Positions 4,499 to 10,451 of a stretch of 29,462 nucleotides of DNA are shown piece by piece. Location: positions 1-29,462 of IMG/VR virus record IMGVR_UViG_3300034198_006027. One strand, given 5' to 3'. Each line of letters starts with the position of its first letter. Positions within the stretch are counted from its first letter, which is position 1. The position numbers and the translations under genes were made by a program. Source of the stretch: a virus. The notes under the pieces are model-generated. The model worked only from the letters and a program-made list of their open reading frames with translations. It searched no databases and was not told the origin of the DNA.

Positions 4499-4805
4499 CG
4501 GGGAATAAAGGAATTTCTATATTTGTTTGTTCGATTTGCTGAACGGGTGCGCCATAACCGCTATCCATTAACGCTTTGTATGCGTTTACATCGCCTTCAC
4601 GCGCTTTTTTAATTAGCGCCAAGGTCATTAGGTCTTCTTGGCTCATTGTTTCGTTTTCTCCTGTAATTGGGTTCTTTAAGTTTTGATTAACTTCCAACCA
4701 TTGCCGTGCTATTGTGCTTCGGTTCTTACTACCCTTTGGTCTTCCTGCGGGGTTTCCGCTTTCGCCTTTTTCCCACCTTGGTTCTATTTGTCCTTTGCCT
4801 GCCAT
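4470..4805 (-). CDS. Small terminase subunit-like protein (DUF5681 type)
   Basis: A 111-residue protein opening with a basic segment KGESGNPAGRPKGSKN (about 14-29), the signature of DUF5681 proteins found immediately upstream of phage TerL genes. A helical middle (LMTLALIKKAREGDVNAYKALMDSGYG) follows, then an acidic tail. Small terminases bind the packaging site and regulate TerL. Adjacency and the 29-base overlap with TerL support the call. There is no obvious helix-turn-helix, so DNA recognition would be by the basic N-terminus. Confidence 0.75.
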   Translation of the reverse strand: MAGKGQIEPRWEKGESGNPAGRPKGSKNRSTIARQWLEVNQNLKNPITGENETMSQEDLMTLALIKKAREGDVNAYKALMDSGYGAPVQQIEQTNIEIPLFPDVQEDNRNE

Positions 4806-4813
4806 TTCGTTGC

Positions 4814-5086
4814 TTATTCGTTGTTTTTTACAAAATAATCAAATTGTTTTTTTACGCAACTTGATAATTCAATATATGTTTGTTTATGCTCAGGAAAAGT
4901 ATGTATTGCAAAATGACTTTCACTTAACAAAAATAACGCCGTATATCCCATTGGTTCAAAATGCTTTTCAATTACATCTAAAACACCAAAACCGCTTTTA
5001 TTAAGTAATAACATATATTTATCAAATAATATACTAGGATTAGTTTCATCTATCCAACTTGAATAATTATACATTTGTGCTTTCAT
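4814..5086 (-). CDS. speH: Minimal S-adenosylmethionine decarboxylase (pyruvoyl type, class 1B-like)
   Basis: A 90-residue protein with the hallmark segment LLSESHFAIHTFPEHKQTYI (54-72) and ELSSC (73-77). In SpeH enzymes the chain self-cleaves before the Ser of ESH to form the pyruvoyl group. Here this is Glu56-Ser57. The other catalytic residues are also present: His62 of IHT, Cys77, and Thr49 at the upstream Ser/Thr position. The family is usually 115-135 residues; this one lacks most of the region after the Cys. Activity would make decarboxylated AdoMet for polyamines, or simply deplete AdoMet. It follows a methyltransferase gene that uses AdoMet, overlapping by 20 bases (8 if Met5 is the start). 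The region is much more AT-rich than its neighbours, suggesting acquisition. No spermidine synthase is seen. Confidence 0.85.
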   Translation of the reverse strand: MKAQMYNYSSWIDETNPSILFDKYMLLLNKSGFGVLDVIEKHFEPMGYTALFLLSESHFAIHTFPEHKQTYIELSSCVKKQFDYFVKNNE

Positions 5087-6326
5087 CTACTTCTATTTTT
5101 GGAAATATATTTTTAATTTCTTTTGTGTTTCCTTTGTAAAATACTAAAACATTTTGATGACATTTGCCAATCTTTCTATGCTCCATAAACCTACCTACTC
5201 TTTGCGGTAATGTTCCAATACTTTCAATTAAAATTAATTCATTATACAATTTCATTCCGTTTTTAATAAAAATACGTTTAATATCATCTATAAAATTATA
5301 GTAGTATCCGTCTTTATCTCGTACGTCTCCAACCGTAATAACTGCAAATCTATTTTCTTTTAAACATTTTACGGCTTTACTAAAGGCATCTTCTATTATT
5401 TCTATAAATTCTTCGTAAGTGTCTTGATTGCTTGCATCGTTTTCTAAATCTGAATAAACTTCCAAATCAAAGTAAGGCGGACAACTAAATAATAAATCTT
5501 GTGAGTTTTCTTTAATATAGTTTAATACATTTCTTCCGTCATCGCATATATAATTTGCATTAAAACCTTTTACTCTTGCATTATTTAAATCGGCTTGTTC
5601 TTTTCTTAATTCAATACCTGTAAATTTATTGCCTAAATAACTACTAACATAACCAAAAACTGTATCACCTGCAAAACAATCAAACGTATTACATTTTTCA
5701 AGTCCAAACCATTTATTTGTGATTTCGGCTAAAACAGGGTCAAGTATTGAAACTCCGTTATTCATTTCCGCCATTATACTTCCATTTGCTAAAGTATTTT
5801 CTCTACTTTCACCGTTATCGTTAATTATTTCTTTCCAATAACGTTTTCTATCATTCCAATAACCCTGCCTTGTATCTAAAATTGTAAAAGGAGGTATTAA
5901 AAAAGTTTCTTGAAGTTTACCGTGTGCAATTACTTCTTTATCTACTTCTTGAATGCTTAAATCAATAGGCAAGTCTAATCCCCAATCCTCTAACTTATCA
6001 GCATCCCATTCATTAGCTAAAGTATCCCAATCCCATTCCCCAAACCCTACGTTATCCTTTACTATAAATTCGTCTTTTTGTTCGCTTGTAAGGTCGTTCG
6101 CCCTAACTATTGATACTTCGGTATAACCTGCTTCTTTAAGTGCCTTAAAACGCATATTTCCACCCAAAATAATGTTATTCTCATCCACTACTATTGGACG
6201 AAGTTCTAACATTTGTGGAAAATCCTTAATTGATTTGACTAATTTATTAAACTTTTCGTCTTTAATTAACCTTGGGTTCTTCGGGTTTGATTTAATTTCC
6301 GATAGTTTTACTTTTTCTATTTTCAT
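5067..6326 (-). CDS. ParB-like domain / DNA methyltransferase fusion
   Basis: A 419-residue protein in two parts. Residues 1-120 are ParB/Srx-like, with SNPKNPR (13-19) and LGGNMRFKAL (54-63). Residues ~140-400 are an AdoMet-dependent DNA methyltransferase: FDCFAG (215-220) as AdoMet-binding motif I, an acidic residue at Glu239, and SCPPY (281-285) as catalytic motif IV of the N6-adenine/N4-cytosine type. The TFLIPPFTILDTRQGYW stretch before it is typical of phage ParB-methylase fusions. It likely modifies phage DNA to resist host restriction; target unknown. The start overlaps the HAD gene as ATGA. Base composition is clearly AT-richer than flanking genes. Confidence 0.9.
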   Translation of the reverse strand: MKIEKVKLSEIKSNPKNPRLIKDEKFNKLVKSIKDFPQMLELRPIVVDENNIILGGNMRFKALKEAGYTEVSIVRANDLTSEQKDEFIVKDNVGFGEWDWDTLANEWDADKLEDWGLDLPIDLSIQEVDKEVIAHGKLQETFLIPPFTILDTRQGYWNDRKRYWKEIINDNGESRENTLANGSIMAEMNNGVSILDPVLAEITNKWFGLEKCNTFDCFAGDTVFGYVSSYLGNKFTGIELRKEQADLNNARVKGFNANYICDDGRNVLNYIKENSQDLLFSCPPYFDLEVYSDLENDASNQDTYEEFIEIIEDAFSKAVKCLKENRFAVITVGDVRDKDGYYYNFIDDIKRIFIKNGMKLYNELILIESIGTLPQRVGRFMEHRKIGKCHQNVLVFYKGNTKEIKNIFPKIEVDESTNV

Positions 6327-6754
6327 ATTATTGCTCCTATTCCTGTTAATTTTCTTACAACATCAATGTTATTATCGTAGTGAGTAACTATTCCGAGTTC
6401 TTTTACTTTTTCAATTTTACCTTCGTTTGAACCCATTGCGTAAACTCTGCCTACGGGAATTCCTAATTCGTTTGCTTTAGGTAACATTCCGTCTTTATTT
6501 TGACGTGCGGAAATAATATAAACTTCTGCGCCTTCGTTAATTAGTTGTTTCGCTTTTTCGTAACCTCGTTTAGTGCTTAAAGTTCCGTCGAAGTCGAACG
6601 AAATCTTTTCCCCTGCTAATTTTGTTTTGAATGCGTCTTGGCAAACTGCATAACGTTGGTCCACATCGTATTCCTCGGTCATTTTAGAATCCGCCATACA
6701 ACGTTGGATGAATTCTTTTTCGGTTTCGTTATTCGTTGGTTGTGGTATCGGCAT
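6323..6754 (-). CDS. HAD-family phosphatase fused to a phage N-terminal domain
   Basis: 143 residues. Residues 1-45 (MPIPQPTNNETEKEFIQRCM... with EEYDVDQRYAVC) resemble the short RCM/QR.AVC segment often found at the start of phage head-maturation proteins. Residues 50-143 are a small haloacid-dehalogenase-like phosphohydrolase: FDFDGTLS (Asp54 nucleophile, Asp56), ISAR (Ser82), a Lys around 113-116, and HYDNN (Asp127). The reaction would be phosphate-monoester hydrolysis; the substrate cannot be told. The gene overlaps the upstream gene by 26 bases and the ParB-methylase by ATGA. It could serve nucleotide metabolism or DNA-end processing. Confidence 0.75.
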   Translation of the reverse strand: MPIPQPTNNETEKEFIQRCMADSKMTEEYDVDQRYAVCQDAFKTKLAGEKISFDFDGTLSTKRGYEKAKQLINEGAEVYIISARQNKDGMLPKANELGIPVGRVYAMGSNEGKIEKVKELGIVTHYDNNIDVVRKLTGIGAII

Positions 6755-8599: not shown

Positions 8600-9267
8600 A
8601 AGGTTTGCATTAATAAGTTATAGTATTCTCGACATAGTTCGACACGTTCTTTAATCTGCTCGATTACGGATTCGTCTTTTTGCACGAACCAATACTTTAC
8701 ACGTCGATTTTTCGGAATGTGGCTAAACTTATGCTTTGCTTCGATTTCTTCGCGTAGTTCCTGCGATTCGTCTATAAGGTGGAATTTCCAATGCGCCCGT
8801 CTTATTTCGTCTTCCACCATTTCGCTCGGAGTGTCTATAAGGCAATAAGCCAAAATTGATTCTTGTTTACCCGTTAACCACATATACCCTTGAAGTTGGT
8901 AATAATAATCTTTGTTAGGTAAATCCGTTTCGAACCACGGGAATGTTGAAGCCTCCCAACTACTTTTAACGTCTATTAACACTTCGTCCGTGTTTACGTC
9001 GGGAGTTCCCGTTAACCAATCGTTCGTAAAATGTTCGTCGTTCTTATAAATAAACTTAAAATTTAACACGTCGTTAACAAGTGCTATTGATTCTTCTTCG
9101 ACTTCGTTTCCTTTGTCGGTGTAACGTGAACTAAACTCCTTTCGGATTCCGTATTTTTCTTTCAATACGATTTCTTCAACGTACGACTTTGCCGTTTGCG
9201 ATAGGACTTCCCCCGACTTGCGGGGGTTAGTCATTATCTTACCAATTTGAGAACATCGGACTTTCAT
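8596..9267 (-). CDS. YqaJ/lambda-exonuclease-like PD-(D/E)XK nuclease
   Basis: 223 residues; the exonuclease partner of a phage recombination pair. It has an N-terminal RCSQIGKIMTNPRK segment, a GNEVEEESIAL helix with the upstream acidic residues (53-63), GTPDVNTDEVLIDVKSS (87-103), holding Asp90 and the Asp99-x-Lys101 catalytic pair, and the YYYQLQGYMW helix (121-130) with the Gln typical of the YqaJ family. It would resect double-stranded ends to give 3' single strands for the ERF protein encoded just upstream. The two genes overlap as ATGA, consistent with a stoichiometric partnership. Confidence 0.88.
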   Translation of the reverse strand: MKVRCSQIGKIMTNPRKSGEVLSQTAKSYVEEIVLKEKYGIRKEFSSRYTDKGNEVEEESIALVNDVLNFKFIYKNDEHFTNDWLTGTPDVNTDEVLIDVKSSWEASTFPWFETDLPNKDYYYQLQGYMWLTGKQESILAYCLIDTPSEMVEDEIRRAHWKFHLIDESQELREEIEAKHKFSHIPKNRRVKYWFVQKDESVIEQIKERVELCREYYNLLMQTL

Positions 9268-9782
9268 ACGTTTTCAAGTAATTTTGTTTGACCTTCGGTT
9301 AACTCAAACTTTTCGATTAGTTCTTCTTTAGTGTATTTCCCTTCGGCAATCATTTCTAAAGCCTTACTTAATCGTTTGTTATCGATAGTTGGTTTTTTCT
9401 TTACTTGTTCGCCCGAAGCGTCGGTGTCTTTGTCCGTAACTAATCCGAGCGCCGAACTTAAAGCGTATCGACGGAAGTAAGTAACACCGCTGCCGAAACT
9501 TTGGTAATCGTTCATTCCTTTTAATTCGACTTGCGGAATAGCTACCTTTGATTCTAACGTTTCGCCACTTTCAACGTGGAAAATAACCGTACAAATGTAG
9601 TCGATTCCTTCTTTAGTGTCAAGTAATTGCGTAAAGCCTAATCCGTGTTTTTTTAGAAGCGGGCTAACTACTTCAAAAATCTTCGGTAAATCTGCGTAAC
9701 TATACCCATAGCCTTGCGTCCCTTTGTGAATTACGGGTACTTCTTGTTGGAAGGCTGCCAACGACTTAAATAAATGTTTCAT
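9264..9782 (-). CDS. erf: ERF-family single-strand annealing protein
   Basis: 172 residues from the chosen start, MKHLFKSLAAFQQEV. A longer frame begins at 9812, but the region between carries a hairpin element shared with 14101-14119. The start context ACGCTATG is also shared with the genes at 14084 and 10025, so I prefer 9782. The ERF core runs through residues 3-125: YGYSYADLPKIFEVVSPLL, GLGF, a beta segment with ICTVIFHVESGETL, and FGSGVTYFRRYALSSALGL. A variable C-terminal tail follows. It anneals complementary single strands and works with the exonuclease downstream in recombination-dependent replication. Confidence 0.92.
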   Translation of the reverse strand: MKHLFKSLAAFQQEVPVIHKGTQGYGYSYADLPKIFEVVSPLLKKHGLGFTQLLDTKEGIDYICTVIFHVESGETLESKVAIPQVELKGMNDYQSFGSGVTYFRRYALSSALGLVTDKDTDASGEQVKKKPTIDNKRLSKALEMIAEGKYTKEELIEKFELTEGQTKLLENV

Positions 9783-9799
9783 AGCGTATAAATTAAAAC

Positions 9800-9824
9800 G
9801 TGCGTTAACCAAGTCGCACCCCTT
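9800..9824 (-). promoter_or_regulatory. Hairpin element upstream of ERF, copy 2 of a shared element
   Basis: Minus strand GGGGTGCG-ACTTGGTTAA-CGCAC: a 5-bp stem GTGCG/CGCAC (815-819 with 800-804) and a ten-base loop, preceded by GGG. It is nearly identical to 14101-14124. In both places it lies between a KOW-like small gene and an ACGCTATG start. Possible roles are an mRNA processing signal, a translational operator or a weak terminator. Confidence 0.65.
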
Positions 9825-9830
9825 GTTTTG

Positions 9831-10025
9831 TTAAAATAATCCTAATTCACTTTCTTTAACAGTACTTTTGCATAAACTACCCGTCCAAGTTTTGAATTCT
9901 AATTTTACTTTTCCGCTTTTTAATACTTTGGTAATTGTTGCTTTTTGAAGTAAAAAACTTTCAAACATTTGTACTTTGTGAATTACTACATCTCCGATTT
10001 TTAATTTTGTTTCTTGTGTTTTCAT
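9831..10025 (-). CDS. KOW/SH3-like small protein (64 aa), paralogous position to 14132-14320
   Basis: 64 residues from MKTQETKLKIGDVVIHK. A longer frame from 10052 would run into the promoter, so the ATG at 10025 in ACGCTATG is chosen. The pattern is KIGDVVIHK, then KATITKVLKSGKVKLEF, then a short end. Five beta strands of KOW/SH3 type are suggested, as in small RNA-, DNA- or protein-binding barrels. It has its own consensus promoter, and that promoter plus the downstream hairpin are repeated around 14132-14320, whose product shares the LxIGxxxxW/H layout. Function unknown; a regulatory barrel protein is plausible. Confidence 0.7.
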   Translation of the reverse strand: MKTQETKLKIGDVVIHKVQMFESFLLQKATITKVLKSGKVKLEFKTWTGSLCKSTVKESELGLF

Positions 10026-10049
10026 AGCGTTTTTGTTTTTAATTATATA

Positions 10050-10080
10050 CAAATATAAACACTATTTTTTAATCTGCAAA
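10050..10080 (-). promoter_or_regulatory. Bacteroidota-type promoter, consensus spacing
   Basis: Minus strand TTTG (10077-10080), exactly 19 bases, then TATATTTG (10050-10057). This is the best match to the Bacteroidota vegetative promoter in the window. It drives the KOW-like gene, and probably ERF and the exonuclease. A 23-base block covering the -7 box and the start region (10037-10059) is identical to 14331-14353. Confidence 0.88.
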
Positions 10081-10097
10081 CTTTTTTGATTTTTTTT

Positions 10098-10451
10098 TTA
10101 ATTTTTTTTTATGAAGTCCACCAAAGGAAGTAAAATCCCCTTGCTTGTATTGCTATCTCCACCCCTTACATCGCGGTTCGTATTTAGATATTTTCTGCAT
10201 AATGTTTTTAATTCGTCTTTTGTTATCATTACAAAATGCGTGTCGCTCAACCAATAACACCACCATTCCGCTTCGCTTGTTGATATTCCTGAACGTTTAC
10301 CCCTGCTTTCGTATTCTACAAAGATATTTCCCGTTTCCGTTGCTTTGAAGTCTCGTTTAACTTCTATTCGTTTACCAAGTAATTCAAATAACTGTGTTTC
10401 GTATGTTTGTCCGATTGCTAAATCAAAACGGAAGTCGCTATTTAATTGCAT
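10098..10451 (-). CDS. Putative PD-(D/E)XK endonuclease (117 aa)
   Basis: A 117-residue protein with the layout of small PD-(D/E)XK nucleases: a Glu in the first helix (YETQLFELL, Glu18), the GKRIEVKRD strand with Glu30-x-Lys32, a following GNIFVEYESRG strand (41-51), then EWWCYWL. Such proteins next to NinG and recombination genes often resolve branched DNA or debranch replication intermediates. The first acidic residue of the motif (expected before the ExK strand) is not clear, so the family is not assured. The start overlaps the NinG-like gene by 14 bases. Confidence 0.6.
   Translation of the reverse strand: MQLNSDFRFDLAIGQTYETQLFELLGKRIEVKRDFKATETGNIFVEYESRGKRSGISTSEAEWWCYWLSDTHFVMITKDELKTLCRKYLNTNRDVRGGDSNTSKGILLPLVDFIKKN

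Follow-up and report, generated by a model that had tools for sequence, protein, structure and literature searches.

A short phage AdoMet decarboxylase and its methyltransferase-like partner as a candidate system for DNA aminopropylation

What use does a phage make of an S-adenosylmethionine (AdoMet) decarboxylase if no spermidine synthase is encoded with it? The question is raised by the IMG/VR virus record IMGVR_UViG_3300034198_006027, analysed here over positions 1 to 29,462 (this whole stretch of 29,462 nucleotides is called the window below), in which the gene of a short AdoMet decarboxylase overlaps that of a protein resembling DNA methyltransferases (MTases). The near-constant overlap of such gene pairs, together with a change in MTase motif I that resembles spermidine synthase, suggests DNA aminopropylation: with a probability of roughly 0.6, the decarboxylase feeds decarboxylated AdoMet (dcAdoMet) to a re-tooled "methyltransferase" that would transfer aminopropyl groups to DNA.

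The open reading frame of the decarboxylase runs on the minus strand from 5086 to 4814 and encodes 90 residues (translation MKAQMYNYSSW...LLSESHFAIHTFPEHKQTYIELSSCVKKQFDYFVKNNE). A first-pass annotation, made from the sequence alone, had read it as an AdoMet decarboxylase with complete catalytic residues, and had suggested a family HMM search and a structure prediction as checks; both came out in its favour. The protein matches Pfam AdoMet_dc (PF02675) with E 6.6e-12 and 46.2 bits against a curated cut-off of 25, and phrog_27309 ("S-adenosylmethionine decarboxylase") with E 3.9e-33 over nearly its full length; its sequence matches in the PDB are AdoMet decarboxylases only. With 40.0 bits it stays below the cut-off of 75.65 for the TIGR03330 equivalog (B. 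subtilis type), and is hence filed under the AdoMet decarboxylase family, not as a TIGR03330 equivalog. Thr49, Glu56-Ser57, His62 and Cys77 are present in the translation; Ser57, His62 and Cys77 are invariant in aligned relatives, and the spacings of 5 from Ser to His and 20 from Ser to Cys equal those of S63, H68 and C83 in the T. maritima enzyme (numbering from PMC10407285). The AlphaFold2 model (mean pLDDT 97.1) has its best PDB fold matches in the AdoMet decarboxylases of A. aeolicus (2iii, Z 11.5) and T. maritima (1tlu, Z 11.0), with 89 residues aligned; it spans T. maritima residues 2–97 only, the last C-terminal strand being absent. Membership of the class 1b AdoMet decarboxylase family, with all catalytic residues, is well supported. 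With class 1b SpeD/SpeH enzymes (PF02675), including that of Croceibacter phage P2559S, the window protein shares sequence family, catalytic residues and fold, whereas it is shorter at the C-terminus, scores below TIGR03330 and has no speE partner in the record.

The shortness of the chain, also remarked upon in the first-pass annotation, is genuine. Relatives in many contigs are of similarly short length (86–155 aa, median 95.5, for MTase-linked decarboxylases), dN/dS among near relatives is about 0.05–0.13, and the next gene downstream begins 9 bp on, at 4805. A frameshift or truncation, by which the short end would be a sequencing error, is ruled out by this conserved length, the dN/dS values and the tight gene spacing, and the short length is a family trait under purifying selection. 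Nor is a minimal decarboxylase unusual in such a setting, as had been thought, since relatives are encoded on at least 121 viral stretches. One of them, the P2559S homologue (106 aa, 51% identical to the window decarboxylase, and the single AdoMet_dc match in that genome), brought spermidine back in E. coli BL21 delta-speD when speE was co-expressed (PMC9992855). As this homologue is active, a decarboxylase of the short type makes dcAdoMet; by analogy, the window enzyme probably self-processes and decarboxylates AdoMet as well.

The gene was also rightly placed beside a phage methyltransferase, which it overlaps by 20 bp (Table 1). By its N6_N4_Mtase and phrog_498 matches, together with motifs I and IV, the 419-aa partner is an N6/N4-type DNA methyltransferase homologue. 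In its predicted model a class I MTase fold occupies approximately residues 138–402, and motif I forms the loop between strand 213–216 and helix 223–230. The motif I of presumed AdoMet-using relatives, FAGG[ST]VRG, is absent from this protein, which has Asp221 and Phe224 instead. PADLOC models did not match the decarboxylase, and matched the partner only as a generic type II methyltransferase.

This pairing is widespread. Among the best 80 of 121 relatives found by the decarboxylase-family search and examined as loci, nearly all have an MTase of the same family directly upstream, mostly overlapping; overall, 122 of 140 pairs have overlapping genes, most often by 20 bp. The same pair occurs in the P2559S genome, and the same arrangement in Stutzerimonas phage ZRG1, though with a longer decarboxylase of the standard type. 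Among the bearers of linked MTases are contigs placed in Bacteroidota, Bacillota, Pseudomonadota, Lentisphaerae and Poribacteria (bins may be contaminated). Within 4 kb of the MTase, the decarboxylase is the only large gene cluster nearly specific to MTases with Asp in motif I (76 of 80 loci, against 1 of 93 for those with Gly), and the lone exception on the Gly side, L182, also holds a linked Asp-type MTase. No third conserved gene of the system was found within 4 kb; a terminase-like cluster does recur there, but both MTase classes share it. Near the linked pair of L182, a minus-strand frame (8813-10277) encodes a second, divergent MTase (FGGGVQMG, SCPPYYKVEKY). Variants of the decarboxylase were seen as well: in L081 (6137-6583) it is directly followed by a second AdoMet decarboxylase-like frame, which seems to have lost the normal ESH site and may be a dead paralogue comparable to the trypanosome prozyme, and the SpeH of Bacillus phage vB_BcoS-136 (L095:3692-4765), with 357 aa, is extended considerably at both its N- and C-terminus.

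Scans with MTase patterns that are independent of the decarboxylase (FAGDTVFG, DPFAGG[ST]VRG and motif IV) display how closely motif I follows this linkage. FAGDTVFG retrieved 108 loci from viral_contigs, one of which is not an MTase; a decarboxylase motif is present in 95 and a variant of it in two more (L124, L197). Five loci are cut by the contig end, and 97 of the 102 uncut MTases are accompanied by a decarboxylase. For DPFAGG[ST]VRG, 0 of the 119 MTases among the matches listed have a decarboxylase in the locus, and for 106 of them the locus extends over 500 bp further downstream. The motif IV scan, blind to both motif I and the decarboxylase, gave the same split, in a table that also takes in loci fetched by other scans; in L264, a locus of the Gly type, a motif resembling the decarboxylase lies approximately 5 kb away. 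Conversely, Asp is found in all 77 motif I sequences that could be read at decarboxylase-found loci. Pooled over 262 distinct MTases, Asp221 and Phe224 occur together in 143 of 143 decarboxylase-linked proteins, while the 114 unlinked ones with downstream room comprise 106 with Gly+Arg, 2 with Gly and another residue, 4 with Asp+Phe and 2 with Asp and another residue. Column 224 discriminates best between linked and unlinked MTases, followed by 226 and 221. Relatives lacking the decarboxylase in Listeria phage B054, Enterococcus phage phiFL3A, Fusobacterium phage Funu2, Pam4, Mae-JY30 and HCTV-2 have Gly (FAGGSVRG type) where the linked MTases have Asp (FAGDTVFG). Two divergent MTases with no decarboxylase, L341 (GDITKG) and L347 (GDFTTG), have lost Phe224 too. 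In Pseudanabaena phage Pam4 (L090:4035-6524), an 829-aa protein carries a PLP-dependent (PALP) domain between MTase motifs I and IV.

The change resembles what is known from spermidine synthases. There, the amine of dcAdoMet is bound by an Asp in motif I (GGGDGGV), and this residue probably repels the AdoMet carboxylate (PMC3725402; PMC6514230); in Arabidopsis structures, the corresponding Asp131 is bound to the dcAdoMet amine (PMC6514230). Mutagenesis of spermidine synthase and putrescine N-methyltransferase revealed that D103 and V106 help to decide between dcAdoMet and AdoMet: the D103I variant of the Datura spermidine synthase lost aminopropyl transfer and gained weak methyl transfer from AdoMet, and on this background Q79T and then V106T raised methyl transfer (PMC3725402). 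Asp221 and Phe224 of the window MTase are three residues apart, as are D103 and V106, and its motif I aligns to TTHA0409 with no gap. Linked MTases hence appear to depart from the Gly-type ones at these same two positions, and in the way that use of dcAdoMet would lead one to expect. With SpeE, the window MTase would share the use of dcAdoMet, an Asp at the equivalent position of motif I and, three residues on, a hydrophobic side chain; it differs in belonging to a DNA-MTase family, with CPPY as its motif IV and a domain resembling ParB.

Table 1. Features of the decarboxylase–methyltransferase locus in the window
Feature	Position	Strand	Basis
AdoMet decarboxylase, class 1b, short form, 90 aa	4814..5086	minus	ORF and translation, PF02675, phrog_27309, predicted model
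Glu56-Ser57, self-cleavage and pyruvoyl-forming site	4916..4921	minus	sequence; invariant in 50 aligned relatives
ParB-N and DNA methyltransferase-like protein, 419 aa, proposed dcAdoMet-dependent DNA aminopropyltransferase	5067..6326	minus	phrog_498 E 8.8e-124; N6_N4_Mtase, ParB_N
Overlap of MTase end and decarboxylase start, 20 bp	5067..5086	minus	coordinates
MTase motif I FAGDTVFG, residues 218-225 (Asp221, Phe224)	5652..5675	minus	sequence, model loop
MTase motif IV CPPY, residues 282-285	5472..5483	minus	invariant in 40 aligned relatives
ParB N-terminal-like domain of the MTase protein, residues 2-75	6102..6323	minus	PF02195 E 2.1e-6

Downstream of the decarboxylase follow genes of a DUF5681 protein and the large terminase. 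Upstream of the MTase (6323-6754), the window encodes a 143-aa protein resembling HAD-type phosphatases (DFDGT motif), with no Pfam match above cut-off.

We propose the following course of events. The decarboxylase would cleave itself at Glu56-Ser57 and form a pyruvoyl group, with which it would turn AdoMet into dcAdoMet. The overlapping MTase would be re-tooled to bind dcAdoMet and not AdoMet, with Asp221 receiving the free amine and Phe224 standing where relatives have Arg. It would then move the 3-aminopropyl group to an exocyclic amine of DNA bases, methylthioadenosine being released. Phage DNA would thus bear a positively charged aminopropyl base, which may block restriction or help packaging. 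The first-pass annotation had supposed that decarboxylase and methylase draw on the same substrate; the relation was rightly noticed, but instead of competition the data point to the decarboxylase making the cofactor of the methylase-like enzyme.

The closest precedent is the CmoA/CmoX(/CmoY) system of Synechococcus phage S-B43, in which carboxy-AdoMet is made for a DNA-MTase homologue and DNA carboxymethylation is proven (PMC12783734). There, as is proposed here, a phage enzyme turns AdoMet into an altered cofactor, and the altered group is put on DNA by an adjacent DNA-MTase homologue in which a residue that binds the cofactor has changed; ParB-like domains recur there as well. On the other hand, carboxy-AdoMet is made there by CmoA, and CmoX is a C5-cytosine MTase homologue of proven activity, whereas here an AdoMet decarboxylase would provide dcAdoMet to an N6/N4-type (CPPY) partner. 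The window proteins match AdoMet_dc and N6_N4_Mtase, and the pair is not a member of the CmoA/CmoX system, although the logic appears similar. In open-licence PMC papers we found nothing relevant on DNA aminopropylation or on a link of decarboxylase and MTase in phages.

Several observations weigh against this proposal. Five FAGDTVFG loci (L133, L139, L158, L185, L191) have no decarboxylase despite room downstream, and a search elsewhere in their records gave no match; four of them (L158, L185, L191, L139) are near relatives of the window phage, in which the MTase is directly followed by DUF5681. For these five records, dcAdoMet might come from the host, or the contig may not reach as far as the decarboxylase gene. 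Conversely, two jumbo phages of 289 and 250 kb (L039:6001-6336, L052:6001-6333) carry a short decarboxylase, but their records contain no member of this MTase family. A profile of the MTase gave no significant alignment with four SpeE proteins, so that the residue equivalence rests on the landmarks of motif I, and the MTase model is ligand-free; spermidine synthase is not among the fold matches shown for it. On an MTase tree built with motif I masked, the Asp and Gly classes are split by a single change, which leaves too few transitions for an independent-pairs test; the match of motif and linkage hence reflects one origin, followed by retention and few losses, and not many independent gains.

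On the same tree, decarboxylase linkage needs four changes. Its retention is deep, with pairwise identities among 76 linked MTase representatives down to 38%, and the decarboxylase type (SSC short versus TC standard) switches at least six times while the linkage persists, as if the decarboxylase were swappable yet rarely lost. In both jumbo phages, a thymidylate synthase-like gene lies near the short decarboxylase.

Polyamine supply, one of two roles envisaged in the first-pass annotation, is the explanation that survives best beside DNA aminopropylation, and we hold it to be unlikely. The decarboxylase would boost spermidine for replication or packaging via the spermidine synthase of the host, and the MTase neighbourhood would reflect hitch-hiking in a module. 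AdoMet decarboxylase genes are common in cyanophages, and the P2559S relative does restore spermidine where E. coli speE is present (PMC9992855). Of 19 bacterial genomes carrying the motif, many of them draft bins, four have speE above the curated cut-off, but eight (Alistipes, Symbiothrix, three Bacteroidales, Dysgonomonas, Spirosoma and a Clostridiales bin) lack any match to speE at E 1e-5 and have a single AdoMet_dc match each, so that a polyamine role there would have no known acceptor enzyme. The statement that no spermidine synthase is seen extends to 14 records beyond that of the window: Spermine_synth (PF01564) has no match in 15 phage records, including the window record (possibly a fragment) and the whole genomes of P2559S and ZRG1. 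Neither the near-obligate overlap with a single DNA-MTase clade nor the motif I change would be accounted for. A genome of Phocaeicola coprocola (G027, that of L394), with no speE match, has a second AdoMet_dc match in a 555-aa open frame (C31:28619-28939).

The other role envisaged, depletion of AdoMet as by phage T3, is not supported either: it would starve the neighbouring MTase if that enzyme used AdoMet, and it leaves linkage to an MTase with altered motif I unexpected and the change itself unexplained. The T3 AdoMet lyase likewise consumes AdoMet, but belongs to a protein family unrelated to AdoMet decarboxylases. The first-pass interpretation is thus partly supported, well as to enzyme identity and not in its two functional hypotheses. 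A related explanation would have the MTase still methylate DNA, while dcAdoMet or low AdoMet inhibits AdoMet-dependent host enzymes (restriction, other MTases) and Asp221 and Phe224 confer resistance to dcAdoMet or use of scarce AdoMet. It would cover linkage and changed pocket together, but AdoMet decarboxylases are generally slow, and we consider it slightly less probable than polyamine supply. Although dcAdoMet has been described as a competitive inhibitor of methylation (PMC2933235), the substitutions resemble those favouring dcAdoMet binding, not its exclusion (PMC3725402).

Slightly lower again in probability is an aminopropyltransferase whose acceptor is not DNA but, for instance, RNA, protein or a small amine. 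The findings on motif I apply here equally, and the best fold matches of the partner model are Trm11/TrmN-type tRNA m2G methyltransferases (Z up to 19.7); the protein family, the CPPY of motif IV and the ParB-like domain, however, point to DNA. Neofunctionalisation of the short decarboxylase into a pyruvoyl-dependent enzyme acting on ornithine or arginine is very improbable. Phages (PMC9992855) and bacteria (PMC10407285) do offer examples of such a shift, but P2559S, the closest relative with a tested enzyme, has a genuine AdoMet decarboxylase (PMC9992855). SpeD-derived ornithine decarboxylases are marked by Gln/Thr/Phe/Tyr, and the arginine decarboxylases by loss of the conserved Pro; Pro45 and Pro65, the former nearly invariant and the latter invariant in the aligned family, are both kept in the window protein.

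For phages at large, we judge the odds to be a little better than even that a minimal AdoMet decarboxylase and a DNA aminopropyltransferase evolved from a DNA MTase form a widespread system, its motif I Asp, which would select dcAdoMet, being convergent with spermidine synthase and its products N-(3-aminopropyl) bases. If so, a new chemistry, aminopropylation from dcAdoMet, would be added to phage DNA modification, and phages that make their own AdoMet-derived cofactor for a DNA-MTase homologue would be known in a second case after CmoA/CmoX. The occurrence of phage AdoMet decarboxylases without spermidine synthase would be accounted for, and an enzyme able to place a primary amine on DNA would be at hand.
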